From NCBI GenBank assembly GCA_016178595.1, contig JACOSY010000056.1, positions 1-36,422 of the forward strand: 36,422 nt of DNA, written 5' to 3'. Positions within the stretch are counted from its first letter, which is position 1. The number at the start of each line of letters is the position of its first letter. Of the stretch, positions 4,341-20,217 are shown one piece after another. A program made the translations under genes and the position numbers. The notes under the pieces were generated by a model. The model was not told the DNA's origin and did no database searches. It saw only the letters and a program-made list of their open reading frames with translations. This DNA is from Ignavibacteria bacterium. Lineage in GTDB: Bacteria > Bacteroidota > Ignavibacteria > UBA10030 > SZUA-254.

Positions 4341-6605
4341 CTAATAATTCAAAGTTAATCCTACTCCCATACCCATATCACTGTTGTAATGTGCTGAGAG
4401 TGAAAAATATTTTGTTATGATATATCTTCCACCCACCATATACTCGGCATCCGAATTTACCATGAAACTAAGGCGCAGGCGGCTCGTCATCGAAACGTCT
4501 TCTCTGCTCAACTGAAAGCGAAACTTCCCGTCCGTATCAATTCTAGAATCAGCAATCAGCAACATCGGCAACGTGTATTGCACGCCCGCGACGAATGCCT
4601 TCCTATTGTTCTTGTTGCTTACTTGGCCGAGCCAATTATTTTCCGGAGATTCTACTCTCTTGTAATGATAGTCGAACCCAACATAGGGAAACCACCACTG
4701 CATCCGGTCAAGATATCGGCCAATATTAGTCTCAATTTCGTAACCATGCATGTCGTGATATCCCAAATGCCACATGGTTTGCAGTTTCCAACGGGTATTC
4801 GCATACATCGCTTCACCGTCACTTCCGTTGCTTTCTAAACCTACTCGCGCCATCGGGTGAAACTCACGGTCGTCATCAAACAATTTTTGAAGGGCCGATG
4901 TGGGATCCGGCAAATCAGGATTTGTGGGAGAATTTTCGTAACTGAAGATCCTGCCCATCCCGGACATCATGTGATAAAGAATGTGGCAATGAAAGAACCA
5001 ATCTCCGCCTGACTCTGAGGCAGCAAATTCTATGGTATCTCTCTCCATCGGCATGATGTCGATGATATTCTTCATTGGCGCATATTCGCCTTGTCCGTTC
5101 AACACTCTAAAATCGTGCCCATGAAGATGTATAGGGTGCCGCATCATGCTGTTATTAAAAAGAACAATTCTCAAGTTTTCTCCTCGCTTAATAAGAATCT
5201 TATCGCTTTCGGAAATCGTCTTGTTGTCCATCGTCCACACGTAGCGATTCATATTTCCTGTCAAATCAAATTTCAATTCTCTTACCGGGACTGCAGGTAA
5301 AGTTGTTTTGTCCGGAGAACGCAACATGCCATAATTAAGCGTTACAATGTCAGAATTATCAGTGTCCATCCCTGCCATGGAATGGCCGTCATGGTTCATT
5401 TGCATTTCCTTCCCGTCCATTTTCATTTTGTCATCCATCTTCGTCCCCGGCATCTGGTCTGTTTTCATAGTATCTTCAGGATTTTCTGGACCTGTTATTT
5501 CCGGGTACATGACATTGTTCATATCCATCACCTGATTCTGCATTGTCATTCCCTCCATCTCAACGATATTGCCGTTCATATCCATCATGTCGTTCATCAT
5601 TTCCATTCCGGCAAAATATTTCAACTTTGGCAGCTTTGTCGCCGATACTTTTTCACCACTACCTAACCATAATGAAGCCGATCCGGTACGGTCTTCCGGC
5701 GTCACTAAAAATTCATAACTCTTGTTGTCGGGAATTGTCACTACAACATCAAAGGTTTCCGAGACCGCGATAATTAGCCGGTCAACCTCTACCGGTTCTA
5801 CATCATTGCCGTCGCTGGCAACTACGGTAATTTTACCGCCTGAATACGTAAGCCAAAAATAATCGGATGCACCACCGTTTGCAATTCGCAACCTTACCTT
5901 ATCTCCGGCTTTGAATTGTGGCTGCTCATTTTGGTTTTTTCCGTTTATCAAAAAGTTATCATAGTGCACGTCGCTCACGTCCATCGCATTCATCCGCTTC
6001 CATTCGTTGGCGAGTTTCGTTCCAACATGCCCACTGAGCAATGCTTCGCCGTAACTTTGGGTAGTCCCTTTTTGAATAGCAAACCAGTCTGTCGCGGTTT
6101 TTAAGCTGCGATGAACTTCGTCAGGATTCATGTCAGTCCATTCGCTCAAGACGACAGGAAGCGTATGGATATCCGATTCTTTTTTCTTATTCATGATGAA
6201 AGCACCGTACATCCCTATTTGTTCCTGAAGCCCGGAGTGGCTGTGGTACCAGTGAGTGCCGTGCTGAACAATGGGGAATTTGTACAGATACGTGGTATGA
6301 GGTTCAATAGGCATCTGCGTCAGATAAGGCACACCATCATAACGATTAGGCAGAAATACACCATGCCAGTGCAGGGCTGTTTCTTCGTTCAGATTATTGT
6401 GCACACATATTTCTGCAGTGTCGCCCTCTGTAAATGTCAGCGTAGGCATCGGGATCATTCCATTGACCGCGATCGCACGGGTTGGTTTTTCTCCAAACGT
6501 TACCATCGTATCGGCAACGTATAAATCGTAACGGACGGTTTGTTGAGCAAAGACTGCTGTTGAAGGCCAAAGGAAAAACGATAGAAGGATAATTGTTTTT
6601 TTCAT
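4341..6605 (-). CDS. Multicopper oxidase (CopA-like) with Met-rich insert and C-terminal extension
   Basis: A 754-residue periplasmic laccase/CopA-type oxidase, in such families linked to oxidation of Cu(I) and copper tolerance. Sec signal peptide to about residue 20 (AVFA/QQ). All four copper-ligand motifs are present: HWHG (79-82), HWYHSH (118-123), HPIHLHGHD (490-498) and HCHILYHMMSGM (539-550), where C540 is the type 1 ligand and M550 the likely axial one. A Met/Asp-rich insert at about 334-413 (MEMMNDMMDMNG, MKMDGKEMQMNHDGHSM) before the last cupredoxin domain is a likely copper-binding segment. Residues ~565-754 are beyond the usual oxidase length, alternate polar and aromatic residues and end in GLTLNY, suggesting a beta-rich or barrel-like domain. 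It lies 23 bases downstream of the haem-binding gene. Confidence 0.92.
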   Translation of the reverse strand: MKKTIILLSFFLWPSTAVFAQQTVRYDLYVADTMVTFGEKPTRAIAVNGMIPMPTLTFTEGDTAEICVHNNLNEETALHWHGVFLPNRYDGVPYLTQMPIEPHTTYLYKFPIVQHGTHWYHSHSGLQEQIGMYGAFIMNKKKESDIHTLPVVLSEWTDMNPDEVHRSLKTATDWFAIQKGTTQSYGEALLSGHVGTKLANEWKRMNAMDVSDVHYDNFLINGKNQNEQPQFKAGDKVRLRIANGGASDYFWLTYSGGKITVVASDGNDVEPVEVDRLIIAVSETFDVVVTIPDNKSYEFLVTPEDRTGSASLWLGSGEKVSATKLPKLKYFAGMEMMNDMMDMNGNIVEMEGMTMQNQVMDMNNVMYPEITGPENPEDTMKTDQMPGTKMDDKMKMDGKEMQMNHDGHSMAGMDTDNSDIVTLNYGMLRSPDKTTLPAVPVRELKFDLTGNMNRYVWTMDNKTISESDKILIKRGENLRIVLFNNSMMRHPIHLHGHDFRVLNGQGEYAPMKNIIDIMPMERDTIEFAASESGGDWFFHCHILYHMMSGMGRIFSYENSPTNPDLPDPTSALQKLFDDDREFHPMARVGLESNGSDGEAMYANTRWKLQTMWHLGYHDMHGYEIETNIGRYLDRMQWWFPYVGFDYHYKRVESPENNWLGQVSNKNNRKAFVAGVQYTLPMLLIADSRIDTDGKFRFQLSREDVSMTSRLRLSFMVNSDAEYMVGGRYIITKYFSLSAHYNSDMGMGVGLTLNY

Positions 6606-6628
6606 AATTAACCAGACGAAAGGAAATG

Positions 6629-7111
6629 CTATTGAATTTGTTTGCTTGATCTTTTGAGCATGGCACTATCTTTTGTTTCTTCAATCCAACGAATAAGCAG
6701 ATCCTGCTGCTCTTTAGTTAGTCGTGCATTTTTATGCATTAGTTTGTATGCCGGCAGTGGCATTGTGCCATCCTTAATCATGTTTTCAATTTCCTGCAAT
6801 TTGCTTACACGCCTTCTTGAGGAAAGAGAGCCGAGATCGTTAAAGTTGAGTTTGGCTTTGCCATTTTCAATATCTTGTGCTAACAACCATCCCATTGGCT
6901 GAATATTGGAATACCAAGGATAGTTGGTATTGTTGCTGTGGCAATCGAAACAGGCATTCTTAAAAAGGGTGTAAACATTATCAGGAATGCTGTATGTAGT
7001 CAAAATATCCGACTGCACCGCCTGCCCACTTTGATTGCGGGCAGGCTGCATGAACTGGATGACTATAAATGCCATCAGTATTGCGAACAGTAGTTGCTTT
7101 ACTCGGTTCAT
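6629..7111 (-). CDS. Haem-binding domain protein (Haem_bd family), single CxxCH
   Basis: About 160 residues. One N-terminal membrane segment (QLLFAILMAFIVIQFM) is followed by a periplasmic domain with a single c-type haem site CFDCH and the family pattern NNTNYPWYSNIQPMGW, later DGTMPLPAYKLMHKNARLT. Proteins of this family occur with cytochromes and copper proteins in Bacteroidota and probably carry electrons. I prefer ATG 7111 (MNRVKQLL) over the longer frame from 7144 because the family begins that way and 7111 lies four bases past the stop of the upstream gene, giving operon-like spacing. AGAGGA upstream is somewhat far, about 14 bases from the ATG. Confidence 0.85.
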   Translation of the reverse strand: MNRVKQLLFAILMAFIVIQFMQPARNQSGQAVQSDILTTYSIPDNVYTLFKNACFDCHSNNTNYPWYSNIQPMGWLLAQDIENGKAKLNFNDLGSLSSRRRVSKLQEIENMIKDGTMPLPAYKLMHKNARLTKEQQDLLIRWIEETKDSAMLKRSSKQIQ

Positions 7112-7115
7112 CAGA

Positions 7116-7757
7116 TTACTTGATTTCCTCTTTGACCGAACCACACGTGAGCATTTTTTTGCCGTAGTAAGGATTTTTTATTTCCTTCTGTTCACTCAGC
7201 CAGATTGCGCCCTTTTTATTGTTATACATGGGGCAAAAGTCCTTAAATAACAACTGACTGCCACCAAATGCTTTTATCAAATCGTACATGTCTTTACTCA
7301 GCATATCAAAATGTTCACGCTGATGAGCGATATTACCGGCATTCGCGCCAATATGCTCTCCATGTTCTCTCGCATCATCTTCCACGTCTTCGTATACTTT
7401 CCTTTGCGATGCAGTCAAATTGTTTTTATCAAACTTTTTGAATGCACTTTCCAAAGCAGTCCCTGCGGTCGCTGTTTCTTTTGTTTTGTCATTAGCCAAA
7501 GCATTTTTCAGATCAAGATAGCGCCCCACAATTTCTTTAATTGATGCGGCAGCTTTGGCATCTATAACACGCAGTGCCGATATTGAATCCGCATTTGTTT
7601 TACCGATCGCTGATCCTTTTTTGTCGTACTGCTCATGAGAAGAGTCGTCCTTGCTCATGGGCTTTGTCTCATGATGCTTATGCTGCGTGAAACTGACTTC
7701 GTTTGATGTATATAGACAGATCACTGTCACTGCGAGGAGAACTACAAATCGTTTCAT
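7116..7757 (-). CDS. DUF3347 domain protein, exported
   Basis: A 213-residue exported protein. After the signal peptide (FVVLLAVTVICLYTSNE) comes a His-rich linker (QHKHHETK), then a helical DUF3347 domain at about 65-205 with the family features YLDLKNAL, HQREHFDMLS, FCPMYNNKKGAIWLS, NPYYGKKMLTCG. In Bacteroidota this domain is often fused to or next to copper/silver efflux adaptor proteins, which fits the multicopper oxidase downstream. The start at 7757 (MKRF) has AAAGG ten bases upstream. An in-frame extension to 7793 exists but would spoil the signal peptide. First gene of a three-gene unit with the haem protein and the oxidase. Confidence 0.87.
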   Translation of the reverse strand: MKRFVVLLAVTVICLYTSNEVSFTQHKHHETKPMSKDDSSHEQYDKKGSAIGKTNADSISALRVIDAKAAASIKEIVGRYLDLKNALANDKTKETATAGTALESAFKKFDKNNLTASQRKVYEDVEDDAREHGEHIGANAGNIAHQREHFDMLSKDMYDLIKAFGGSQLLFKDFCPMYNNKKGAIWLSEQKEIKNPYYGKKMLTCGSVKEEIK

Positions 7758-7888
7758 AAATACGCACCTTTCTTTGATCGTTACGTGATTCACTAATTCC
7801 TTGATGGGCTAGCTTTCCAGAGCACTCCGCAAAATCGGAACGTCTCTGAATAAGAAAGTTCAGTTATTGATTAGAAAATAGAAAACGG

Positions 7889-9247: not shown

Positions 9248-9676
9248 TCAAGATATCTGGTCTAAAAACCACCTCAATTGCTCTTTAAGTTTTCCAAGTG
9301 GCTCACTTTGCTTTCTCTCCCAACGTGCAAGTGTTGTAGGATCAATTGCCAGCAATTTGGCAAGTTTCTTTATACTCAAACCTTGCTTTCGTCTATACTG
9401 TTTGATTTGCTCCCCGAAGGTAATCCCAACTGGCAAAGGGTCATAGCCAAGGAACTGGATTATTTTAGGTATCATTTGAAGAGTGGGTCCTACTCGGTTC
9501 TTCTCCCAGTTGGTGACAGAGCTCGTAGTCACTCCCATCAGTTTCGCTACATCCTTTTGAAAGAGATTGAGGTCAAGGCGTTTCTTTCTGAGGCGATCCC
9601 CCATTGATTGTAACGACTTCGGATATGCATCAGATGGTGGTTTTTTTGCGGAAAGAGTAACATCGCAGAAATGCAA
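9248..9676 (-). CDS. XRE-family regulator with two helix-turn-helix domains
   Basis: A 142-residue DNA-binding protein with tandem Cro/CI-type domains: the first at about residues 26-75 (FQKDVAKLMGVTTSSVTNWE), the second at about 85-135 (LSIKKLAKLLAIDPTTLARW). The link FLGYDPLP between them is typical of this two-HTH family. The N-terminal stretch HFCDVTLSAKKPP fits the family, so I take the TTG start at 9676; ATG at 9604 would still keep both domains. It lies directly against the 3' part of comM on the other strand, and a decayed paralogue lies at 19867-20217. It could regulate the membrane gene downstream. Confidence 0.82.
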   Translation of the reverse strand: MHFCDVTLSAKKPPSDAYPKSLQSMGDRLRKKRLDLNLFQKDVAKLMGVTTSSVTNWEKNRVGPTLQMIPKIIQFLGYDPLPVGITFGEQIKQYRRKQGLSIKKLAKLLAIDPTTLARWERKQSEPLGKLKEQLRWFLDQIS

Positions 9677-9681
9677 CGCAA

Positions 9682-10167
9682 CCCTGTTTGTGCGGATATT
9701 TCACAGACCCTTCGAAAGAGTGCACGTGCTCGCCCATCCAAATCCAGAAATATATGGCAAAGATTTCAGGACCTCTACTCGATCGGATCGATCTTCACAT
9801 TGAAGTGCCCGCTGTCAAGTACAAGGAACTGGCAAGCAAGGAAAGCGGTGGGCCGTCTCATCGAATTCGTCAGCGTGTCGTTAGCGCTCGTGCCGTGCAG
9901 ATGCAGCGGTTTACCGGACGTAAAGGGATGTTTTGCAACGCAGACATGCAATCAAAAGATATTCAAACATTTTGCAGGCTCGACGCTGCCGGAGAGGACT
10001 TATTGAAGATGGCTATTACGAAACTTGGACTTTCCGCCCGCGCCTATGACCGCATCCTCAAAGTCGGACGCACTATTGCCGATCTCGCGTCATCTTCTAT
10101 CAAACCGGAACATATCAGTGAAGCAATTCAATACAGAAGCCTAGACAGGAATCTATGGCAAACTTGA
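9682..10167 (+). pseudogene. comM: ComM/YifB Mg-chelatase-like ATPase, 3' third only
   Basis: The C-terminal ~160 residues of ComM (about 510 when complete), the ATPase involved in natural transformation. Visible are CLCGYFTDPSKECTCSP, the SGPLLDRIDLHIEVP region that follows the ATPase core, and the C-terminal helical part (LGLSARAYDRILKVGRTIAD, ISEAIQYRSLDR). Walker A, Walker B and the N-terminal domain are absent; the frame is blocked just upstream by TAA, and the DNA there codes for the XRE protein on the other strand. The remaining reading frame is intact, so truncation may be recent. It is the only rightward gene in the window. Confidence 0.88.
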
Positions 10168-10235: not shown

Positions 10236-12413
10236 TTAGAGCACAAACAGGTAAGCTGCTTTTGCAATGATCGTCGTCTTGGACTGAAGAATTCTCCCTG
10301 ATGTATCGAATAATTGGTTTACAACAAGATAGATGTCACTTCCTATTTGGGGTATCCAGTGAAGACGTAAGTTCATGCTGATTTCGTTGTCCTCGTTATT
10401 CCACTGGATGAGCAGAGAAGAGTTCAACATGGGTGAAAAACCATAATTAATCGTTGCTCCGGCTTCGTTCGCAGTAAAGTCCGACATCGGAAGCCGCACT
10501 TCGTTTCTTGTATAATCGAGACTCAGCGAAAAGCGACCTCCCAACTTCAACTGAGGTTGAATGATGTAGGTCCGGCGATTGCCGTTGTAATGTCCTCCCC
10601 ACCTGTACAGGAGAAACAATGAAGCATTCCGGCTATCGTTTGTTGCAAATTGTAATTCCCATCTTGACCACCAATAGGTTGAGGGCGGGATCTTGTTTCC
10701 AAAAAATTCAATGCTATCGTGAGGTGTATCGGCAAATCGCTGGATGTTCCACTCAAAGTACTCACCGGAGTTTGTTTGAAATCCGAGAATGCGCCCTTCA
10801 TAGTCAAGTGATTGAACTTCACCATTCGTACCTTTGTAGTAGTTCATTTCAATGGGCTTGAACTCGATGTATTGTATCCCGATTCCCTGCGGTCGCGCGC
10901 GAACACGAAACGTGTAAGAATACTTCACGAAATCGTTCCTGTTCTGAAACCCGACCTGTGGATCGAAATTGCGTTGCACCACGCGCACACCGATGAATTG
11001 ATCAATAAGGTCATTCGGGAAATCTGCATACAACCTGTAGGCAAGGTTGTTTGTGGTAATCCCAGGATCTTCGGTTCCTGCGATGCCTCCCCCAATGATT
11101 AACGTATTGGTGCCGAACACGTCGGATTGGACCCATGCTCCATCAAAACCGAGGAGACGATTGTAGCTCGAAGACGATTGCTTGTTTGTCGCGATAACAC
11201 CAAGATATGACTGCTGGAGGAGGTCTCGCTTCACTCTTGCGACAGTATAGTTCGTCGTTGGTTCACCCGCACTTTCCGCTGTCTGCATTGTGAGCATGCC
11301 GAGATTGTATTGCCCGGCTTTGCCGACGACTCTTACTCCACCAAGAATGGGTATCGCCTCTCCAGCATCACTCAAACCGATTCTTCTACTGTAGAAAGGA
11401 ATGGGAGAATCGCCGAACTGGAAATCGAAAATACCGGCGCCTTCGAGAAAGAAGTCTCTCTTCTCAGGATAGAAGAGAGGAAATCTTGTCAGATTGATGT
11501 GAACACGGTCAGCTTCAACTTGAGCGAAGTCGGTATTGGTCGTGACATCAAGAGTAAGAGTTGACGTTAGACCATAGTTGATGTCCAATCCGATTTTTGT
11601 TTGCGTTGAGCTCACATCACTGAAAGGTGGATATCCCTTTTCTACACCACCAAGTACGTATGGTTTGACCTCGACTCGATTACCGCGATGGACGTTTTCC
11701 AATCCGGTCAGGATTCCTGCCTGGGAGAGTTTTTCAATCGTAAAGTTACGTGAGTATCCCTGCCAGAGATCTTGCTCGCGTTTTCGGCGGATGTTACGCT
11801 CGAAGTTAATTCCCCAAATCTGTTTTGCACCGTCCGGGAATCGAAGTGTTGAAAACGGAATCTCGATGACCGCAAACCAGCCTTGTGGAGTCGTGGTGGT
11901 ACGAGCATTCCACAATCCGTTCCAATCGGAATTTACTCCCTGTCCTTCATCTGTGACCAGAGCATCATAACGCGCTCCGTTCGGATTGATGATGAACAGG
12001 AATCCGTTACGCTTATCGTGATAGGTATCGATGATCACTTTGAAGTTATCCTCAACATCGGTGTTAAAATCACGCTGCATCTCATTCGCTACGATTTCAT
12101 GCGAGACACTGTCATAACACCATACACCAACATAGATTGCATTGTCGTCATAAACGATTCGCACTTCGGTACGTTCTGTTGCGGGCATGCCTTCATGAAG
12201 CTCTCGTTGGATAAAGTTCGTGATTGGAGCGGCTTTGTTCCATGTCTCGTCAGTCAGAATACCACCGAGACTCGGGGGTTTTCCCACTTTGACGGCAACA
12301 GCCACAGCAGAGTCGGCCTGCTCTGCTGAATAGGAGAGCTGAAGAGAGAACAGCGCGGAAAAGAAAAACTGAACGAGCCGCTTCAGATGTGTTTGTTCTG
12401 GGGCAGAGGGCAT
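10236..12413 (-). CDS. DUF5916 outer-membrane barrel with N-terminal CBM9-like domain
   Basis: A 725-residue exported protein. Signal peptide (LVQFFFSALFSLQLSYSA), then a CBM9-like beta-sandwich at about 40-235 (LTDETWNKAAPITNFIQRE, NAIYVGVWCYDS, GWFAVIEIPFSTLRFPDG), then DUF5916 from about 245 to the end, including FYPEKRDFFLEGAGIFDF and many alternating beta strands typical of an outer-membrane barrel. Substrate unknown; the family is common in Bacteroidota and related phyla. ATG 12413 is preferred over an adjoining TTG. Only 15 bases separate it from the YncE-like gene, so it is probably the last gene of the long operon. Confidence 0.85.
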   Translation of the reverse strand: MPSAPEQTHLKRLVQFFFSALFSLQLSYSAEQADSAVAVAVKVGKPPSLGGILTDETWNKAAPITNFIQRELHEGMPATERTEVRIVYDDNAIYVGVWCYDSVSHEIVANEMQRDFNTDVEDNFKVIIDTYHDKRNGFLFIINPNGARYDALVTDEGQGVNSDWNGLWNARTTTTPQGWFAVIEIPFSTLRFPDGAKQIWGINFERNIRRKREQDLWQGYSRNFTIEKLSQAGILTGLENVHRGNRVEVKPYVLGGVEKGYPPFSDVSSTQTKIGLDINYGLTSTLTLDVTTNTDFAQVEADRVHINLTRFPLFYPEKRDFFLEGAGIFDFQFGDSPIPFYSRRIGLSDAGEAIPILGGVRVVGKAGQYNLGMLTMQTAESAGEPTTNYTVARVKRDLLQQSYLGVIATNKQSSSSYNRLLGFDGAWVQSDVFGTNTLIIGGGIAGTEDPGITTNNLAYRLYADFPNDLIDQFIGVRVVQRNFDPQVGFQNRNDFVKYSYTFRVRARPQGIGIQYIEFKPIEMNYYKGTNGEVQSLDYEGRILGFQTNSGEYFEWNIQRFADTPHDSIEFFGNKIPPSTYWWSRWELQFATNDSRNASLFLLYRWGGHYNGNRRTYIIQPQLKLGGRFSLSLDYTRNEVRLPMSDFTANEAGATINYGFSPMLNSSLLIQWNNEDNEISMNLRLHWIPQIGSDIYLVVNQLFDTSGRILQSKTTIIAKAAYLFVL

Positions 12414-12428
12414 CAAGCAATGGATGGG

Positions 12429-13409
12429 CTAATGTTTGACATCGTACACCCAAACAGCCGCGCCTTGGTCACCGCGATGTGGGATGGCAAGGAATAATTG
12501 ATTCAGTTGTAGAGCGAAGAAGGACGTTCGCGCCCCCGATGCTGTTTTGATCCTCGATGTGACGGTGTAGTCGCTCGAATCATTCCGTTCAATCACATCC
12601 AAGAATCCCGATCCGCAGGAGATATAGATTCGTCTGTTCTTCTGATCATAGGAGATATCGTCTGTATCACTGTCAATGTCGACCTTGGATAGAATGCGCT
12701 GCGACTTTGCATCAATTACCAGGAGTCGGGAGGGTTTCCTGCATCCAATGAAGAGGAGATGGAGTTCCCGATCCAACGCCATCGGAAAATTTGCTGATTC
12801 ATCTTCGAGCGCAATGGATGATATCCGCTTCTGGTTCCTGGCATCAAGCACAACAATCTGCTTTGCACTTGGAACATTAACGATGATTCTCGAACTATCC
12901 CGCCCGAACTGGAACGATTCCGGATGCCCGGGGAGAGCTATTCTTCCTATCTCTTTAAACGTCGAAGCATCGATAATTCCAAGTGCACCATCTCCAAAAC
13001 CGACATAAATCCTATTCATTAAAGCATCATATCGAACATTGTCCGCATCGTCAGAGAACTTAACCCGCTCGACTTCCGCAAAAGTCGAACCATCAAAAAT
13101 TCTCACGCTGCCATCGCCTCCATTTGCGACGACGATCCTGTCGGACTTCGGGATATAGCAAATTCCTTGAGGTTCATCAAGGGCGTTGATACTGCGAACG
13201 ACTTTTCCCTGTTTCAAATCGACGATCTCAACGCTGTTGTTGCCCAACGCCACTACAAAAAGCTGCTGGTGCGCCATATCAACGTCCATATGATCAATAC
13301 GCCCTTCGACATGCGGTAATGGAATCTCACGGAGAAGCTCAAGGACTTTTTGAGCCGGTGTCTGCGAGACCCCAAGAGCGGCGAGGAATAAGATCAAGAG
13401 TAGTCTCAT
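12429..13409 (-). CDS. YncE-like beta-propeller protein, exported
   Basis: A 326-residue exported seven-blade-type propeller. Signal peptide (LLLILFLAALGVSQTPAQ), then YVTN/YncE repeats such as LFVVALGNNSVEIVDLKQGK, RIVVANGGDGSVRIFD and NRIYVGFGDGALGIIDAST. Related proteins are periplasmic and sometimes bind DNA or metals; no specific ligand can be read here. The start at 13409 is set by AGAGGA six bases upstream; a second ATG at 13415 overlaps that site and longer frames to 13523 lack a signal peptide. It follows the DUF1259 gene by about 50 bases. Confidence 0.85.
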   Translation of the reverse strand: MRLLLILFLAALGVSQTPAQKVLELLREIPLPHVEGRIDHMDVDMAHQQLFVVALGNNSVEIVDLKQGKVVRSINALDEPQGICYIPKSDRIVVANGGDGSVRIFDGSTFAEVERVKFSDDADNVRYDALMNRIYVGFGDGALGIIDASTFKEIGRIALPGHPESFQFGRDSSRIIVNVPSAKQIVVLDARNQKRISSIALEDESANFPMALDRELHLLFIGCRKPSRLLVIDAKSQRILSKVDIDSDTDDISYDQKNRRIYISCGSGFLDVIERNDSSDYTVTSRIKTASGARTSFFALQLNQLFLAIPHRGDQGAAVWVYDVKH

Positions 13410-13458
13410 TGCCATTCCTCTGCACGAAAGAACCGCAGACCGCGTTTCGCGGGATCTC

Positions 13459-14442
13459 TTACTCATCGTCGTCATCTTCATCCGATTCCCGCTTCTCCTT
13501 TCCACTCTTGCCAAGCTCATCAATCGCAGCTCTGAATCCCGCTGCCAGCTTCTCGGCGGGACCGACGCCCCAGTAATGCAGGAAGATTACCATAGGTCGA
13601 GCGCCAGTCATGTGGTGATGAATCGCGACAATGTCGAGCCCGTTTTTTCGAAGGGTTTTCAAAACCGAAGTTACTTCGGATTCAAGCATTGCGATATCTC
13701 CAGCCACTGCAGCCTTCTCATCCGTGCCGACAAACGCCACCCAAGTGTTCAGTCCCATGCGGGCATTTATGATTGCACCCATTTCCTTCAACTTCAGGTC
13801 ATCACGTCCAATCACGACCTTATAGACAGGACCATTAACATCGCCCTTGTGGCCGATGATTGCATTCAACTTTTCCGTATTTAGCTTTCCCTCGACAACC
13901 TGTACGGCATTTCCTGCGTTGGACATGGCTGGGGCTTTCTCGCTTGCTCCCTCTGAAGAAGTGATATGTCCAATCAAATCTAGGGCAGGTTTCACCTCCC
14001 TTGCAAGATCTGCCGGCTTACCGTGTCCATGGATATGCATGTAGTACATGCGCGGCTCATCCCAGAAGAAGTGGTTGTGAAGCGCAGTTACCTCCAGACC
14101 GTTTTCCAAAAGGGCGGACATGACCGGATTGACCTCCTCCTGCAGCAACACGAGGTCTCCCATCATGACGTTCATGTCCATTTCTCCTTTTGTCATTGCA
14201 CACCATCCGCCAAAACCGAACGACGTTGGCGTCGCTACACCGGCAACGGATACTTTCAAATCGTTGCGCGGTATGTTTACCTTAAGGACGTTATCTTTAT
14301 AGTCGCCCTTCTTACCAAGAAAGGTGAGAACATCTTGATATTCCTTCGGAATATCTTGCGCCAAGACGCTCGTACAAATAATTACTGATAAAATGACGGA
14401 CGGCAACAACAAAGATGTCACCGAACAACATTGGTGTTTCAT
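13459..14442 (-). CDS. Exported protein with two DUF1259 (LppY/LpqO) domains
   Basis: A 327-residue exported protein built from two copies of DUF1259 at about 32-165 and 185-305. Both copies carry the pattern NIPRNDLKV / VIGRDDLKL, a GxxxWxAxxG core, and a His-rich end (HNHFFWDEPRMYYMHIHGHG in the first, HHHMTGARPMVIFLHYWG in the second), which looks suited to metal binding although the family has no assigned function. The C-terminus is acidic (ESDEDDDDE). AAAGGAAAG precedes ATG 14442 by five bases. It lies between the 14-cysteine protein and the YncE-like propeller. Confidence 0.88.
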   Translation of the reverse strand: MKHQCCSVTSLLLPSVILSVIICTSVLAQDIPKEYQDVLTFLGKKGDYKDNVLKVNIPRNDLKVSVAGVATPTSFGFGGWCAMTKGEMDMNVMMGDLVLLQEEVNPVMSALLENGLEVTALHNHFFWDEPRMYYMHIHGHGKPADLAREVKPALDLIGHITSSEGASEKAPAMSNAGNAVQVVEGKLNTEKLNAIIGHKGDVNGPVYKVVIGRDDLKLKEMGAIINARMGLNTWVAFVGTDEKAAVAGDIAMLESEVTSVLKTLRKNGLDIVAIHHHMTGARPMVIFLHYWGVGPAEKLAAGFRAAIDELGKSGKEKRESDEDDDDE

Positions 14443-14469
14443 ATCGACTTTCCTTTCTCTATGATCTGT

Positions 14470-14847
14470 TCACTTCGGTTTCTTTTTTGCTTCCTTTACC
14501 GGTTTGAGATGGAACTTGCAAACATCGCAACCCGGTCCGCAATCTGTGCATCCTTCCGCGCCGCACATACCGCATCCACACTCCTTCGTTGTTAACCCTT
14601 TTGCAGCGCAGTAGAAACAATTCTTCCCGTGACATGGCTTGCAGCCTTTCGCTGCACATTCACCACAGCCGCAGTCTTTGATGGAAGCGGCTTTAACAGC
14701 AGTCGCAATATCCCCGTCCTTTACTGAGTTGATTTTGTGTTTTGCCGAGTGGGCCACTGATTGCGTTTTGGGGTGGGCATAGACATTTATAGAATAACTT
14801 GCCACGAGTACGCAAATACTGGCAATGAGGATTCGACAATAGTTCAT
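14470..14847 (-). CDS. Exported cysteine-rich protein, two 7-Cys modules (metallothionein-like)
   Basis: A 125-residue exported protein that I cannot place in a named family. After the signal peptide (ILIASICVLVASYSINVYA) and a short linker, 14 cysteines lie within about 55 residues. They form two copies of one pattern: CGCGECAAKGCKPC-HGKN-CFYC and CGCGMCGAEGCTDC-GPG-CDVC, that is CxCxxCxxxxCxxC followed by CxxC. The tail is Lys-rich (EAKKKPK). Even cysteine spacing and tandem modules suggest a soft-metal binding or redox role in the periplasm. AGGAAGGAA lies about nine bases before ATG 14847. Position inside the chr operon supports a metal-related role. Confidence 0.75.
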   Translation of the reverse strand: MNYCRILIASICVLVASYSINVYAHPKTQSVAHSAKHKINSVKDGDIATAVKAASIKDCGCGECAAKGCKPCHGKNCFYCAAKGLTTKECGCGMCGAEGCTDCGPGCDVCKFHLKPVKEAKKKPK

Positions 14848-14895
14848 TTGATAAATTCCTTCCTGTTTCGTGCTGATGAAAGATAAAATAGTTCC

Positions 14896-15264
14896 TTATT
14901 TAACAGAACTGATGTAGAGCACTTGCATGCCGCCCTTCTTTACCAGCTTTCCTGTAACGGTCACCGTTTCGGACATCTTATCGATCAGCAGCTCGCGGCC
15001 AGGCTGATGATCGTTGCTTCCCATTGCCACATAAATATTGCCTTTTGCATCGACGATTCCAATCGGGTTTCCTGCCTTTGCACATGTGGTGGCACACTCC
15101 TTATGACTAGCCCCGCGGCTGCCATCATCGAGGTAACACCAAAGATCAACGACCTCTCCTTTTACTGTCTTCTCTTTGCTCTTAGATTGAGCAATTGCTC
15201 CTGCTACACTTGTCGCAAGTAGGACAATAAGTGTTACGGTTATAGCAATTGATTGTCGTTTCAT
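14896..15264 (-). CDS. Small exported protein with Cys cluster, OB-like fold
   Basis: A 122-residue exported protein. Signal peptide (IAITVTLIVLLATSVAGAIA), then a ~90-residue domain with VKGEVVDLWCYLDDG, HKECATTCAKAGNPIGIV and VTVTGKLVKKGGMQVLYISS. The beta-rich ends look OB-like, and three cysteines plus a His (WCY, HKEC, TTC) could bind a metal or haem. Similar uncharacterised proteins occur widely in metal- and cytochrome-related loci. AGAAGGAG precedes ATG 15264. It is about 48 bases upstream of the 14-cysteine gene. Confidence 0.7.
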   Translation of the reverse strand: MKRQSIAITVTLIVLLATSVAGAIAQSKSKEKTVKGEVVDLWCYLDDGSRGASHKECATTCAKAGNPIGIVDAKGNIYVAMGSNDHQPGRELLIDKMSETVTVTGKLVKKGGMQVLYISSVK

Positions 15265-15322
15265 GATTATTTCTCCTTCTGTTGTTGAGGTTGATTATTA
15301 GGTTTTAAAAATTATTGGTTTT

Positions 15323-16108
15323 TTATTTGCCGTTCACCAGAGCTTTTACAGTGAAATCATCGAAGAGAATATAGGAATCTGCTTTCGTCCACACTCCGAT
15401 CTTCCCGGGTCCTTTGAATGTTGCATCATTTTTTTCAAACAATCTGTTGCCGTCAAAGTAACACTCGAGCGTATCTCCTCTTGCCTCCACAACAAGCGTG
15501 TGCCATTCGCTCGTGCTCACTTTTGTATCAGATCCCTCTATTTGTTTCCTGTTGCCATTGACGACTTTGTAAAAGTTCACATTGTCTTCAAGGGCGTTTG
15601 CCCGAACAAGGTAGTAGTTGTTGATGTCCCTGTATCGCCAGACAAGCCCGGCGCCTTGGTCAACCGAACCCTTAATCGCCTTGAACTTCACGCTGAGTTG
15701 TAGATCGGTGTATGATGATGAATCCAGAACAGCGACTGGAAAGCGGTAATCGGTTTGATCCTGAGAGATTTGTGCAAGAACATTCGGTCTCGACGGCGCG
15801 GTTGTGTCTTCCATAACAATCCAGTTTCCGAGCTGGCCATTGCCTGTCCGATCGTGCGACCAGCCCTTTGGAATCCGACGCAAGCTGTCAGTGTCAAAAC
15901 CATAGACTGTTCCACCTTGAATTCCAAATTGGTCGCTATCGGTGTCGTTCACTTGTTCGGATGCAGTTGTTGTGCTTTTGGTTTCATTACCTTCGTGTTC
16001 GTCTCGCTCCTTGTTGGATCCTCCTTTGCATCCAATCAGAGTTAGAGCAAACAAGAAGCAGCATAGCTCGCGTGCACTCTTTGCAAAATGATGTCGTGTG
16101 TGTTTCAT
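15323..16108 (-). CDS. Lipoprotein with DUF1080/LamG-like sandwich domain
   Basis: A 261-residue lipoprotein. The lipobox LIGC places the lipid-bearing cysteine at residue 27. A low-complexity linker (EHEGNETKSTTTASEQ) leads to a concanavalin-like beta-sandwich at about 75-258 with GNWIVMEDTT, DQGAGLVWRYRDINNYYLVR, STSEWHTLVVEARGDTLECY and GPGKIGVWTKADS. This is the DUF1080/3-keto-disaccharide hydrolase-like fold, which often binds rather than cleaves sugars. Catalytic residues cannot be judged. AAAGGA lies upstream of ATG 16108. It sits in the chr operon, where its link to metal resistance is unclear. Confidence 0.78.
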   Translation of the reverse strand: MKHTRHHFAKSARELCCFLFALTLIGCKGGSNKERDEHEGNETKSTTTASEQVNDTDSDQFGIQGGTVYGFDTDSLRRIPKGWSHDRTGNGQLGNWIVMEDTTAPSRPNVLAQISQDQTDYRFPVAVLDSSSYTDLQLSVKFKAIKGSVDQGAGLVWRYRDINNYYLVRANALEDNVNFYKVVNGNRKQIEGSDTKVSTSEWHTLVVEARGDTLECYFDGNRLFEKNDATFKGPGKIGVWTKADSYILFDDFTVKALVNGK

Positions 16109-16164
16109 TTTGGTATCCTTTCAAGTTTGGCAGTTCATTGTCTGTTTCTCATATTAGAATCCTC

Positions 16165-16374
16165 TCAATGCGTATCATGCGTTGAGATCGAATTCTGCTT
16201 CCTTGTAGTCTCGATGTAGTTGCGTACAAAGAAAGGAACCATTGCCAATGCAATGCCAAAAAATTCTATTAAATCTGCATCGTTCATAAAACCATAGACA
16301 ACCATCACTAACCCGATTGCGACAACAAGATACTGAATGACCGTGAGTACAATATTTGATTGATTGAAAATCAT
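16165..16374 (-). CDS. Two-TM mini-protein next to chrA
   Basis: A 69-residue protein of unknown family with two predicted membrane segments (VLTVIQYLVVAIGLVMVVYG and LIEFFGIALAMVPFFV) and a short charged tail (ETTRKQNSISTHDTH). It begins six bases after the chrA stop, which argues for a real translated gene, although no clear ribosome site is visible. Its position suggests a helper subunit of the exporter, which is only inference. Confidence 0.55.
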   Translation of the reverse strand: MIFNQSNIVLTVIQYLVVAIGLVMVVYGFMNDADLIEFFGIALAMVPFFVRNYIETTRKQNSISTHDTH

Positions 16375-16380
16375 CGATAT

Positions 16381-17574
16381 TCAGCCACGATAATGAAATA
16401 ATACGAGACCCAATAACCCAGCCACAATGACGATAATCGGTTCCGGGACTTTGAACTTGAATAATATGCCAAGCGTAACAGCCGCAATCATTGCTGTCGG
16501 GATGTCCATGATCGCGCGGCGGCCCAACACAATGACTGCTCCTGCAATTGCACCAGTGGCGGCAGCCGTCACACCATCTACGAAAGCGATGAGTTGTGGA
16601 TTCTTTGCGTACCGCTCGAAGTACGGTGCAGGTATGATGACGAAGAGATACACGGGCAAGAACACGCCGAGCGCAGCCATCACGGAGCCGGGGAACCCAG
16701 CAATCAGATATCCAATGAATCCAACAGTGATCACGACAGGACCGGGTGTAATCATTGCCACTGCAACGGCATCGAGGAACTGCCGCTCGTTCAACCACTG
16801 ATGTTCCTGAACTACGCCGCCATAGAGAAAGGGTACAATGGCAAGCCCGCTGCCAAAAATAAATGCGCCCGCCTTCGCGAAGAACAGGAACACGTTAAAC
16901 AGGGTTTCAGACTGCGGGATGTTCAATGATTGCAATAGCGATAACCCTAGAGGGGGAATCAGCGCACTCGTTCTGGAGTGGATAAACTTCGGGGGCGCAA
17001 GAACGAAAAGCGCGACAAGACCCGACAGAAGGAAGAGCCACGCAATCTCTTGTTCTGTGTAGGCAGTCGTAACGCACATTATCACGAAGATTGCCCAAAG
17101 AAGTGATTTCCCCTTGAGCGTGAGCTTTGTGAGTTTGTATGCAGACTTGATGATAATGCCGATGACCGCAGCGCCAATGCCGTAGAAGAGAGCTTGCATC
17201 CAGGCGAGACCGCCAAAAGAAACGTAGAGCATTCCAAGCCCAACAACCATAAGAAAAGATGGAACGATGAACGCGATGCCGATGAGTGTTGCACCAAGAA
17301 CTCTCCCTTTAAGGTAGCCGATGTAAATGGCAAGCTGAGCAGCAAGTGGTCCTGGCGCCAGTTGTGCAAGCGCTAAACCTCGCAGGTATTGTTCCTTGCT
17401 GATCCAGCGCTTTTGGTCAACCAGGTCGCGCTCCATATAACCGACCAAAGCAATTGGACCGCCGAAGCCAAACGTGCCGAGCCTAAGAAAATAGAGAACA
17501 AGGTCTCGAAGAGAATAATTATTCAGATCAGAAGAAGGTAGACGTTCATTCATTTTCAAGTCATTGTTTGTCAT
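16381..17574 (-). CDS. chrA: Chromate transporter ChrA (two-domain CHR family)
   Basis: A 397-residue inner-membrane transporter of the CHR superfamily, which exports chromate. Both halves carry the family signature: FGFGGPIALVGYMERDLV with LAQLAPGPLAAQLAIYIGYL in the N-terminal half, and FIFGSGLAIVPFLYGGVV with AVAVAMITPGPVVITVGFIG in the C-terminal half. About ten hydrophobic segments are visible. Length fits the long, bidomain subfamily. ATG 17574 lies six bases after the CDF gene, with a second ATG at codon 8. Together with chrB two genes upstream this identifies the cluster. Confidence 0.95.
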   Translation of the reverse strand: MTNNDLKMNERLPSSDLNNYSLRDLVLYFLRLGTFGFGGPIALVGYMERDLVDQKRWISKEQYLRGLALAQLAPGPLAAQLAIYIGYLKGRVLGATLIGIAFIVPSFLMVVGLGMLYVSFGGLAWMQALFYGIGAAVIGIIIKSAYKLTKLTLKGKSLLWAIFVIMCVTTAYTEQEIAWLFLLSGLVALFVLAPPKFIHSRTSALIPPLGLSLLQSLNIPQSETLFNVFLFFAKAGAFIFGSGLAIVPFLYGGVVQEHQWLNERQFLDAVAVAMITPGPVVITVGFIGYLIAGFPGSVMAALGVFLPVYLFVIIPAPYFERYAKNPQLIAFVDGVTAAATGAIAGAVIVLGRRAIMDIPTAMIAAVTLGILFKFKVPEPIIVIVAGLLGLVLFHYRG

Positions 17575-17580
17575 GCTGCT

Positions 17581-18600
17581 TCAATGCGAGTGGGTGGGCA
17601 GTCCATCGTGAGAATGTTCAACAATCCGATGATACATTTCGCCAACCTTCTCTTCCGGGTCAACATGCACAATGACATCGCCAAGATGCTTGAGGTGATG
17701 CAGCAACTGATGACGAACCTCTTTGGCAATCTCGTGCCCGTCGTTTACCGAAAGATGAGAATGGACTGCAATATTAATTTCCGCGTGCAGTCGATGCCCA
17801 ATCCATCTCGCACGTGTTTCTCCGACGTTTTCTACTCCATCGACATGGTGAGCTGTATGGGTAATTTCCTCCAGAAGCTCAGGCTCAACGCCATCAAGCA
17901 AGCGAATGAATACAGCTTTACTTGATTGCCAAACGATAAAAATAATTGCAACGGTTATACCTATTCCAACCAGTGGGTCAGCGACAGGATAACCAAGCCA
18001 AACTCCAACCGCTCCAAAGAGCACAGCCAGACTTGTCCAGCCATCGACACGCGCGTGGTAGCCATCTGCGACGAGTGCCGCGCTGCCGATTTGTTTTCCC
18101 ACTTTGATGCGAAATACTGCTACCCCCTCATTGCCCAAGAAGCCGATAATCGAAGCTGCGACGACTGCCCCCAAGTAGCCTACCTCCGATGGATGAAAGA
18201 AACGATTGATAGCTTCATACCCGGCGACAACAGCGCTGATAAGGATAGTTAAAACAACTGCAACACCGGCCAAGTCTTCAACTCGTCCGTAGCCATAGGA
18301 AAATCGCTTGTTCGGCTTTAGTCGTGCAAGCGTAAAGGCAATCCAGAGAGGAATTGCTGTCGCCGCATCACCAACGTTGTGAATTGTATCCGCCAAGAGT
18401 GCGACGCTATGCGAAAGCAGTACAACAACAATCTGAAGGAATGCCGTGGCAAACAACACTACGAAAGACCATTTGACCGCCCAAATCCCACGTTGAGTTG
18501 TGACTATAGAAGGGTCAATGATGCCGTGCGAATGTCCGTGGCTCGGATGCTCAGTAGCACTATGTCCAACGTGGTGAGAATGTTCATGATCGGATTTCAT
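17581..18600 (-). CDS. Cation diffusion facilitator (CDF) metal exporter
   Basis: A 339-residue inner-membrane metal/proton antiporter. The N-terminus is His-rich (nine His in the first 30 residues). Six TM segments follow. The TM2 site HNVGD (H74, D78) and the TM5 site HARVD (H182, D186) form the HxxxD/HxxxD arrangement seen in Zn/Cd-type members. The cytoplasmic C-terminal domain (from ~225) keeps GVENVGETRARWIGHRLHAE and ends in a His-containing tail. It lies between chrB and chrA, with six bases to chrA, so translation may be coupled. Substrate is inferred as Zn or a similar divalent metal; its link to chromate is unusual. Confidence 0.93.
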   Translation of the reverse strand: MKSDHEHSHHVGHSATEHPSHGHSHGIIDPSIVTTQRGIWAVKWSFVVLFATAFLQIVVVLLSHSVALLADTIHNVGDAATAIPLWIAFTLARLKPNKRFSYGYGRVEDLAGVAVVLTILISAVVAGYEAINRFFHPSEVGYLGAVVAASIIGFLGNEGVAVFRIKVGKQIGSAALVADGYHARVDGWTSLAVLFGAVGVWLGYPVADPLVGIGITVAIIFIVWQSSKAVFIRLLDGVEPELLEEITHTAHHVDGVENVGETRARWIGHRLHAEINIAVHSHLSVNDGHEIAKEVRHQLLHHLKHLGDVIVHVDPEEKVGEMYHRIVEHSHDGLPTHSH

Positions 18601-18694
18601 TCAATTTTCCTTCGTGTTATTGCCAAGTGGCGTTAATAATAGAGGAGAAGCTCTTGGAACGAGTACGTTTCTGTTTGTCCGGTACTTGACTGTG

Positions 18695-19666
18695 TCATCG
18701 TTTCTTCTTTCCATCGGAAAGATAGTGATAGAGGGCATCGAGCAAAACAGATCCAACCTCAAGTGTCTTTTGGTCGTCGCGAAATGAATCTGAAAGCGAC
18801 CGGATGATCAAATCCACCCCACTCGCCTCTGGTCTGCCAAATTTCTGATCTTTCAAGTCGATGTCATGGACAATTTGAGCGATTGATTTTAGCACCGGAT
18901 CATTGATCCGGAAAGCTGTGAGCAAGGTTTCAAATGTGCAATGGTCACCGTGGTGACTGAATTCTGCCGCGACCACATCGAACGGAATTGTTCCTTTCGG
19001 GATTTTCGTTTCCACGGAAAAAACAAATTTTGCTTTCCGATCAATGAAACGTCGGATAAGCCACGCCGAACATACACGGTCAATGTGAATGTGTTCCCGC
19101 GTTGACCACGTCTTTCCCTGAAATTCTTTCCTGAGATATGTTCTTAATTTTGCTGGCGGGACACGAAGAGGCTCCATTGATGCAATCATCTTTCTGGCGA
19201 CCTCCAACTCTGATTCACAATCAACAGAAAGGGAGTGCCCAAAGAAGTCAGTTCTCTGAATTAAACTGAATTCCTCCTGTAATTTTTTGCATTCCTTTGC
19301 CAGAGTCTTGATCACAAGCAGCGACTGACGGATGGCTTTTGTCTGATCCACCCGTGACTTCAGCGTTCGAATTGATTTCATCAGGGCATCGTATTCTTCC
19401 TTCTTTCCCTGTTCGAAGAGGCTTCGGAGAAGGTTGTCTTCATTCTCATTCTGTGTTTCAGAGACAAATACCGACGCTTCTCCTTTTGAATCTCTGATCT
19501 GTTGTGAGAGCCATTGGAAGTCTTCAAGCCGTTCTTTATTGTACGGCAGAACATATACCGAATTGCGGTAGAGGATTGCTCCGACTTTTTTCGTCATGCG
19601 CCACACTTTCACCCGCTCGCGCGAATTCGGCGTTTGAACTTGGTGGACGAGGAATAACCATTTCAT
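18695..19666 (-). CDS. chrB: ChrB chromate-responsive protein
   Basis: A 323-residue protein with the two-part ChrB layout: an N-terminal domain at about 1-110 (KWLFLVHQVQTPNSRERVKV, GAILYRNSVYVLP), a helical middle, and the C-terminal ChrB domain from ~187 (STREHIHIDRVCSAWLIRRF, FSHHGDHCTFETLL, IVHDIDLKDQKF) with conserved His, Asp and Cys residues that could bind a metal. In proteobacteria ChrB acts as chromate sensor and repressor of the chr promoter. ATG 19666 is the first start after the promoter at 19705-19733. Its Shine-Dalgarno is weak, which could hold expression low. Confidence 0.92.
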   Translation of the reverse strand: MKWLFLVHQVQTPNSRERVKVWRMTKKVGAILYRNSVYVLPYNKERLEDFQWLSQQIRDSKGEASVFVSETQNENEDNLLRSLFEQGKKEEYDALMKSIRTLKSRVDQTKAIRQSLLVIKTLAKECKKLQEEFSLIQRTDFFGHSLSVDCESELEVARKMIASMEPLRVPPAKLRTYLRKEFQGKTWSTREHIHIDRVCSAWLIRRFIDRKAKFVFSVETKIPKGTIPFDVVAAEFSHHGDHCTFETLLTAFRINDPVLKSIAQIVHDIDLKDQKFGRPEASGVDLIIRSLSDSFRDDQKTLEVGSVLLDALYHYLSDGKKKR

Positions 19667-19680
19667 ATCATTTGTCTTTA

Positions 19681-19704
19681 TGTAATGATGTAATGTTCAT
19701 TACA
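19681..19704 (-). promoter_or_regulatory. Palindromic operator candidate upstream of chrB
   Basis: On the plus strand TGTAATG-TT-CATTACA (19689-19704) is a perfect 7-bp inverted repeat, and a third half-site TGTAATGA (19681-19688) repeats it directly on the chrB side. The palindrome abuts the predicted -10 box, so a bound protein would cover the transcription start. ChrB or the XRE regulator are possible binders. Confidence 0.6.
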
Positions 19705-19733
19705 ATGTTATGACAAATATTACACAATTGCAA
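19705..19733 (-). promoter_or_regulatory. Predicted promoter of the chr operon
   Basis: On the minus strand TTGCAA (-35, 19728-19733) and TAACAT (-10, 19705-19710) are 17 bases apart, each matching 4 of 6 consensus bases. It is the best match in the 200 bases before chrB and lies directly upstream of the palindrome. Confidence 0.5.
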
Positions 19734-19866: not shown

Positions 19867-20217
19867 TTAGTTTTTGCCTCTCTCACACCTGTTAAGCGAT
19901 GTCGGATCCACACCGATCTGCATTGCCAATTTTCTTTGAGTGATACCATGAGACTTGCGGTAAATGAAAAGCCTTTCACCTAAAGTCTTCGCTTGCAGAG
20001 CGCTGGGATCGAAGCCGAGGAATTGAAGGGTCGCGGGAATCATGTGCAACTGAGGTTGAGTTCGATTCTTTTCCCAATAACACAGTACATCCATCCACAC
20101 CCAAACCTTCAGCAATGTCTCCTGACGAAGTTTTGGTCAAGGCGTTTCTTGCGAGGTCCCCTCGAAAGGGCCATTTCCCTCAAAAGGCCATCACAAAGAC
20201 CCTTTCGAAAATTGTGA
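19867..20217 (-). pseudogene. Decayed double-HTH XRE regulator, paralogue of the gene at 9248-9676
   Basis: The open part (82 codons to 19867) keeps the first-domain end WEKNRTQPQLHMIPATLQFL and a second HTH (TQRKLAMQIGVDPTSLNRCE), with the family link FLGFDPSALQAKTLGERL. Upstream, pieces of the first HTH are readable only by switching frame: RKKRLD near 20150, QET near 20130, EGLGVDG near 20100. At least two or three small indels are needed to join them. It aligns with the intact XRE gene at the left of the chr block (shared WEKNR, HMIP/QMIP, FLGFDP/FLGYDP, IDPTTLARWE/VDPTSLNRCE). The protein also stops soon after the second HTH. Confidence 0.75.

Follow-up and report, generated by a model that had tools for sequence, protein, structure and literature searches.

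The chromate resistance (chr) cluster of Arthrobacter sp. FB24 carries chrJ, chrK, and chrL together with chrA and chrB; chrL encodes a member of the LppY/LpqO family (DUF1259) and chrK a signal-bearing propeller of the YVTN/WD40 type, all genes of the cluster are induced by chromate, and resistance is lowered in constructs without chrL or without the segment that contains chrK (PMC2751784). On plasmid pMOL28 of Cupriavidus metallidurans CH34 (chrI-B-A-C-E-F-O-N-P-Y-Z), a DUF1259 gene (chrY) and a propeller gene (chrZ) lie downstream of chrF and are chromate-induced, as is chrP (PMC2864759), and the chr operons of Cupriavidus neocaledonicus STM 6070, C. metallidurans Ni-2, and Cupriavidus sp. 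USMAA2-4 (chrB-A-C-E-F-cep(-chrL)) contain cep, which encodes an exported concanavalin-like protein (PMC7060636), with DUF1259 also present in the STM 6070 and Ni-2 clusters. We describe here a run of ten genes at 10236-19666 on the minus strand of a 36,422-nucleotide stretch from an Ignavibacteria bacterium (contig JACOSY010000056.1; this whole stretch is the window), which is probably an extended chr operon under ChrB control whose exported proteins handle exported chromium. The run bears on the fate of chromate after ChrA has exported it to the periplasm and on the reason that chr loci hold so many exported genes.

The ten open reading frames (ORFs) are all present where the preliminary description had placed them, on one strand and without long gaps, and they read from 19666 to 10236. 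From chrB onward the intergenic gaps are 94, 6, 6, 56, 58, 48, 27, 43, and 15 bases, where the gap ahead of the propeller gene is computed with ATG 13415 as its start; this codon has AGAGGA upstream and is more likely to be the start than TTG 13523, which overlaps the DUF1259 gene. The family assignments are Pfam and NCBIfam profile matches, and they bear out the identities first proposed (ChrB_N with ChrB_C, CDF, two-domain ChrA, double DUF1259, YncE-like propeller, and DUF5916 with CBM9_1). In order from the promoter, the features are:

19728..19733, minus strand: -35 box TTGCAA of the predicted chr promoter, read from the sequence, with a 17-nucleotide spacer
19705..19710, minus strand: -10 box TAACAT of the predicted chr promoter, likewise read from the sequence
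19689..19704, minus strand: predicted ChrB operator TGTAATGAACATTACA, a TGTA-N8-TACA palindrome abutting the -10 box
18695..19666, minus strand: chrB, chromate-responsive regulator (PF20229, 44.2 bits; PF09828, 153.8 bits)
17581..18600, minus strand: His-rich CDF cation exporter (PF01545, PF16916, TIGR01297 at 225 bits)
16381..17574, minus strand: chrA, two-domain (long) chromate exporter (PF02417 twice, TIGR00937)
16165..16374, minus strand: two-transmembrane mini-protein directly 3' of chrA (homologues in loci L035 and L138)
15323..16108, minus strand: lipoprotein with a concanavalin-like domain, cep (PF21708/PF06439-like)
14896..15264, minus strand: small exported protein with three Cys (homologue in L138)
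14470..14847, minus strand: exported 14-Cys protein, candidate thiolate metal binder (66% identical homologue in L085)
13459..14442, minus strand: chrL, double DUF1259, LppY/LpqO family (PF07485, 272 bits, two stretches)
12429..13415, minus strand: exported chrK-like YncE/YVTN propeller (Pfam/NCBIfam; 26% identical to pMOL28 ChrZ)
10236..12413, minus strand: DUF5916 protein with a CBM9-like N-terminal domain and a predicted beta-barrel (PF19313, PF06452)

With the Arthrobacter cluster the run has in common ChrA, the ChrB domains, ChrL, and a signal-bearing YVTN/WD40 propeller (PMC2751784), whereas that cluster has a split ChrB, a small CHR gene, chrJ, and a one-membrane host, and as described it is without a concanavalin-like protein, CDF, Cys proteins, or DUF5916. 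pMOL28 shares chrB, chrA (62% identity between the products), ChrY (42%), and a propeller (ChrZ, 26%) with the window, but has in addition chrC, chrE, chrF, chrO, chrN, and the MFS gene chrP, and is without CDF, Cys proteins, and DUF5916. The three Cupriavidus clusters share cep, although no DUF5916 or Cys proteins are annotated in them. The closest named match to the combination is plasmid pA27BH1 of Pedobacter sp. ANT_H27B (chrB-chrA-chrB_C-chrL-...-cep-DUF5916), which differs in having an ABC transporter, in lying beside a Tn3-family transposase, and in that no Cys proteins or CDF were seen; its annotation draws no chr link for the CBM9 protein. The preliminary description named chrB, chrA, and at times chrC or chrF as the content of known chr operons, and this account was incomplete, as chrL/chrY (DUF1259), chrK/chrZ (propeller), and cep are already published. 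Its suggestion that the unit had not been described is mostly wrong, and stands for the DUF5916 clade, the two Cys proteins, the two-transmembrane protein, and CDF when these are taken as partners of chr genes.

The 36-kb window holds just one TGTA-N8-TACA palindrome, at 19689-19704, 22 bases ahead of the chrB start, and as far as the sequence can tell this is an inverted-repeat operator in the promoter before chrB, as in chr operons. Operator-like sites that match at least seven of eight consensus positions precede six of the seven full-length chrB genes of the class, 23-38 bases before the start, as compared with seven of 358 control ORFs, and two loci (L087 and L089) have the same promoter layout ahead of chrB, including the 17-nucleotide spacer. 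pMOL28 has TGTAGAGATCTCTACA ahead of chrB. In Ochrobactrum tritici, ChrB binds the chr promoter region, where an inverted repeat overlaps the -10 motif (PMC3817168), and this repeat resembles the palindrome at 19689-19704. Because a single conserved operator-like palindrome abuts the -10 box ahead of chrB, the arrangement points to one ChrB-controlled promoter serving the whole run. No terminator-like sites or stems were found inside the nine gaps, and the minus-strand promoter-like matches that simple sigma-70 scans return within the run all lie inside ORFs and occur at the frequency expected by chance. The single ChrB-type operator, the tight spacing, and the recurrence in related genomes together uphold the proposal that the ten genes are one unit of exported proteins behind chrBA, and we infer both their co-transcription and their induction by chromate in this organism.

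The core of the run is well defined. Both the N-terminal and the C-terminal domains of ChrB score over their Pfam cut-offs, and ChrA reaches 389 bits against the TIGR00937 cut-off of 171.7 and is encoded by the only CHR-family gene found in its own genome. Of the seven cargo genes, three fall into accessory families already known from chr clusters. The chrL product is 42% identical to the pMOL28 DUF1259 protein ChrY, and as an exported tandem DUF1259 protein of a kind found in chr loci it fits the ChrL and LppY/LpqO family. Each of its two repeats has an invariant His-x-His and one further invariant His across 13 sequences, and these sites would suit binding of a metal or an oxyanion. The ChrL structure model has a predicted local distance difference test score (pLDDT) of 84, and the alpha/beta matches that a fold search with it returned were all weak and had nothing in common with one another (best Z 7.8), with no convincing Protein Data Bank fold relative among them, such that we claim neither fold nor mechanism from that search. 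No more than two DUF1259 genes occur in the own genome, and each lies within a chr locus. The propeller is 42% identical to the chr-linked propeller of locus L086 and 26% identical over 282 residues to the pMOL28 YncE protein ChrZ (E 1e-29); propellers are widespread, and we regard it as a putative member of the ChrK/ChrZ family and as a candidate ortholog of Arth_4252 and Rmet_6194. The lipoprotein, whose Pfam matches are mainly to concanavalin-like domains, is 37-46% identical to the cep products of plasmid chr operons, and both its concanavalin-like signature and its place in chr operons are those of Cep. Homologues of cep occupy chr loci in members of the Ignavibacteria, Gemmatimonadota, Omnitrophota, Rokubacteria, and Chloroflexi, as well as chr loci on Cupriavidus and Sphingopyxis plasmids; some hidden Markov model (HMM) matches to cep in the survey (e.g. 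in L154 and L158, and the match at 5705 in L164) were wrong-frame artefacts overlapping chrA and were not counted. We also note that an ABC transporter with an extracellular solute-binding protein adjoins cep in the plasmid chr clusters of Pedobacter (L191, 8916-12215) and Sphingopyxis (L333, 6620-9953).

Parts of this gene set recur in other genomes. Scanning named genomes for ChrA yielded 53 loci, and the profile survey covered these together with ChrB loci of the class and phylum; the survey set was built on ChrB and close relatives of ChrA, as the phylum's ChrA relatives are for the most part other CHR subtypes (about 30% identical, with no chrB or cargo around them) that would hide recurrence. 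Within Ignavibacteria, another metagenome-assembled genome (MAG) has chrA with the two-transmembrane, small Cys, cep, and chrL genes (L138), a member of the same family has ChrB_C, chrA, a cytochrome-like gene, the 14-Cys gene (66% identical), cep, and chrL (L085), and two further loci have chrB, chrA, the two-transmembrane gene, propeller, and DUF5916 with a divergent chrL (L035), or DUF5916 divergent from chrB, chrL, and chrA (L092). L086 has chrB, chrL, and propeller. Four Gemmatimonadota loci (L157, L164, L165, and L184) have chrA-chrL-cep-propeller in that order, with chrB upstream in the first three, and two more (L176 and L258) have chrL-DUF5916-propeller divergent from chrB. On the Pedobacter plasmid, the ABC transporter and cep come after chrB-chrA-ChrB_C-chrL, and next in line is a CBM9/DUF5916 protein that shares 44-45% identity with that of the window; the cluster adjoins the Tn3-family transposase. 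The neighbourhood survey that had been proposed as a check thus finds DUF1259, cep, the propeller, and the DUF5916 clade beside chr genes across phyla, and each Cys protein in at most two other loci. The own genome also has a second chr locus (L088; contig C15, 3321-5980) with an MFS transporter, ChrB_C, and chrL, and without chrA. It adjoins a thiL-like gene, and because L085 and L138 carry larger chr clusters beside the same gene, L088 may be a reduced copy of such a cluster.

The accessory set of chrL, chrK-like, and cep genes is found in chr loci of many phyla, and to it the window adds DUF5916, for which we found no mention in the open literature searched. The protein scores 74.8 bits with PF19313 (cut-off 22.6), with the match covering just profile positions 4-97 of 572. 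In its AlphaFold model, which is of low confidence, the N-terminal part is rich in beta structure and about 24 long strands come after it; all significant Foldseek matches of the model (E up to 0.001) are outer-membrane barrels, with template modelling (TM) scores under 0.4. In a tree of 32 DUF5916 proteins that includes paralogues from the same genomes, a single clade (support 98/97) unites the chr-adjacent copies of Ignavibacteria, Gemmatimonadota, and the Pedobacter plasmid. The chr-linked copies of Acidobacteriota and of L092 fall just outside this supported clade, and widening it to include them brings in two others, a second copy from the Acidobacteriota genome, whose short contig carries no chr gene, and a Pseudoalteromonas copy; the remaining paralogues group elsewhere. 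In L089 a DUF5916 gene lies 4 kb from chrB; it was initially taken as a recurrence and then rejected, as it groups with the unlinked paralogues. Among Gemmatimonadota, at least one chr-type gene lies near 12 of 20 high-scoring DUF5916 genes versus three of 20 lower-scoring ones (one-sided Fisher p 0.004), and chrA or chrB lies near seven of 20 versus none of 20 (p 0.004). The DUF5916 clade thus appears from these linkages to be a new chr partner, associated with the chr accessory set across at least three two-membrane phyla; CDF, the two-transmembrane protein, and the Cys proteins are also new as chr partners, with thinner support. In one Gemmatimonadota group (L266), an MFS transporter lies between chrL and DUF5916.

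A plausible course of events can be outlined. ChrB would sit on the one palindromic operator heading the run and be released by chromate, such that all ten genes are made together, and ChrA would then pump chromate into the periplasm; both ChrB derepression and ChrA efflux rest on established work on the two families. The exported proteins (ChrL, the ChrK-like propeller, Cep, the two Cys proteins, and the DUF5916 barrel) would deal with chromium outside the inner membrane, although we infer the job of each of them, capture included. In the likeliest version, periplasmic proteins would bind the exported chromium and the DUF5916 barrel would pass or display it across the outer membrane without re-entry. 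Taken by itself, the outer-membrane exit step is possible and rather doubtful, and somewhat more speculative still is the proposal that in Bacteroidota, Gemmatimonadota, and Acidobacteriota this DUF5916 clade supplies chromate efflux with its outer-membrane component, which with ChrL, the propeller, and Cep would extend the single-membrane ChrA pump to a two-membrane path or would form a chromium sink at the surface. Because a predicted outer-membrane barrel recurs beside chr genes in at least three phyla, the data suggest an unstudied outer layer to the chromate resistance of two-membrane bacteria; the DUF5916 family gains a testable function, and the chr loci of these bacteria gain a candidate outer-membrane part.

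Several considerations weigh against reading the run as a chromium-handling operon of this kind. The DUF5916 barrel and its pore depend on a model of mean pLDDT 57 and are not established, the run may contain internal promoters, and the chr set is rare, with ChrB_C in 10 of 391 sampled genomes of the class. Moreover, eight Gemmatimonadota groups of DUF5916, chrL, and chrK genes (L260, L263, L266, L269, L274, L284, L286, and L289) lack both chrA and chrB within the stretch covered, although chrL or the propeller is present. The tie between the exported module and ChrA is thus not a strict one, and the module may also function where ChrA is absent. Lastly, Arthrobacter ChrK has been proposed to act in regulation, not in chromium handling (PMC2751784). 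This last point leads to the main alternative, in which the exported proteins, instead of handling chromium, are sensors or signalling parts that detect chromate or envelope damage outside the membrane and raise chr expression via ChrB. Arthrobacter chrA induction was higher when chrK and chrB parts were present, and a role in signal transduction was proposed (PMC2751784); however, the Arthrobacter construct had several genes removed together, the two-transmembrane mini-protein apart there is no transmembrane signalling protein in the cargo, and the large predicted barrel and the 14-Cys protein fit signalling poorly. We consider this alternative unlikely, and continue to favor an operon whose exported proteins handle chromium.

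The remaining cargo and the CDF exporter raise the question of other metals. The two-transmembrane mini-protein matches no Pfam family above cut-off and has homologues at the same position in L035 and L138. The small Cys protein has an 80% identical homologue in L138 (an apparent third genome with it turned out to be L138 again) and a single weak, partial match in plasmids; in four control loci, members of its wider family (about 40% identical) show no link to chr genes, and the own genome has three such genes. The 14-Cys protein has 16 Cys in total, two of them within the signal peptide, and all 14 of the mature region are invariant in the L085 homologue, its only close relative; it was not found in plasmids, and 294 sampled genomes of the class, own genome excluded, gave no strong match and one marginal one. 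These conserved cysteines would suit a protein that binds Cr(III), or some other metal, through thiolates. The CDF protein, with 31 His, is matched by profiles for both the transmembrane and the dimerisation domains, and probably removes divalent metal released or co-encountered under chromate stress; a CDF HMM match in L189 was dropped as not significant by BLAST. The two-transmembrane, CDF, and Cys proteins each recur in only one or two other chr loci.

The presence of CDF and the 14-Cys protein within the run speaks for the preliminary description's idea of general periplasmic metal capture and export, in which the Cys proteins would bind thiophilic metals, CDF would export divalent cations, and ChrA would be one outlet among several for zinc, copper, and chromate. 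Copper-type genes (a multicopper oxidase and others) 2.4-5.9 kb downstream of the run agree with it, as does a Chloroflexi MAG locus (L179) in which a CDF gene with a 62% identical product also lies directly ahead of chrA. Nevertheless, the regulator and the operator are both of the chr type, chrL, chrK, cep, and the DUF5916 clade recur mainly with chrA or chrB, and only CDF and the Cys proteins, each in at most two other loci, suggest cations, while the closest small-Cys homologues outside chr loci have no chr genes nearby. Metal capture in general is thus a weaker reading than chromate, given that most partners recur with chrA or chrB and both DUF1259 genes of the own genome lie in chr loci, and we think it quite improbable. 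That exported carbohydrate-related proteins (concanavalin-like, CBM9-like, and propeller) merely happen to lie behind chrBA is very hard to credit, for although genomes of this kind commonly carry DUF5916 and small-Cys genes (four and three, respectively, in the own genome), the survey makes a chance collection unlikely through recurrence across phyla and on a plasmid, clade-specific DUF5916 linkage, and three families with published chr membership.

The flanks of the chr run hold some further features. An XRE-type helix-turn-helix gene lies downstream (9248-9676) and a frame-broken relative upstream (19867-20140), both on the same strand as the run (tblastx E 5e-17), and this pair may mark an insertion. 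Between the downstream copy and the run, 9688-10167 on the plus strand is a C-terminal remnant resembling a YifB/ComM-type ATPase, a candidate identity assigned by eye, with no other copy found in the own genome. Further downstream, copper-type genes at 4341-7793 on the minus strand, also read by eye, encode two exported proteins, a small one with Cys and His and a His-rich one, along with a large multicopper oxidase that has Met/His stretches.

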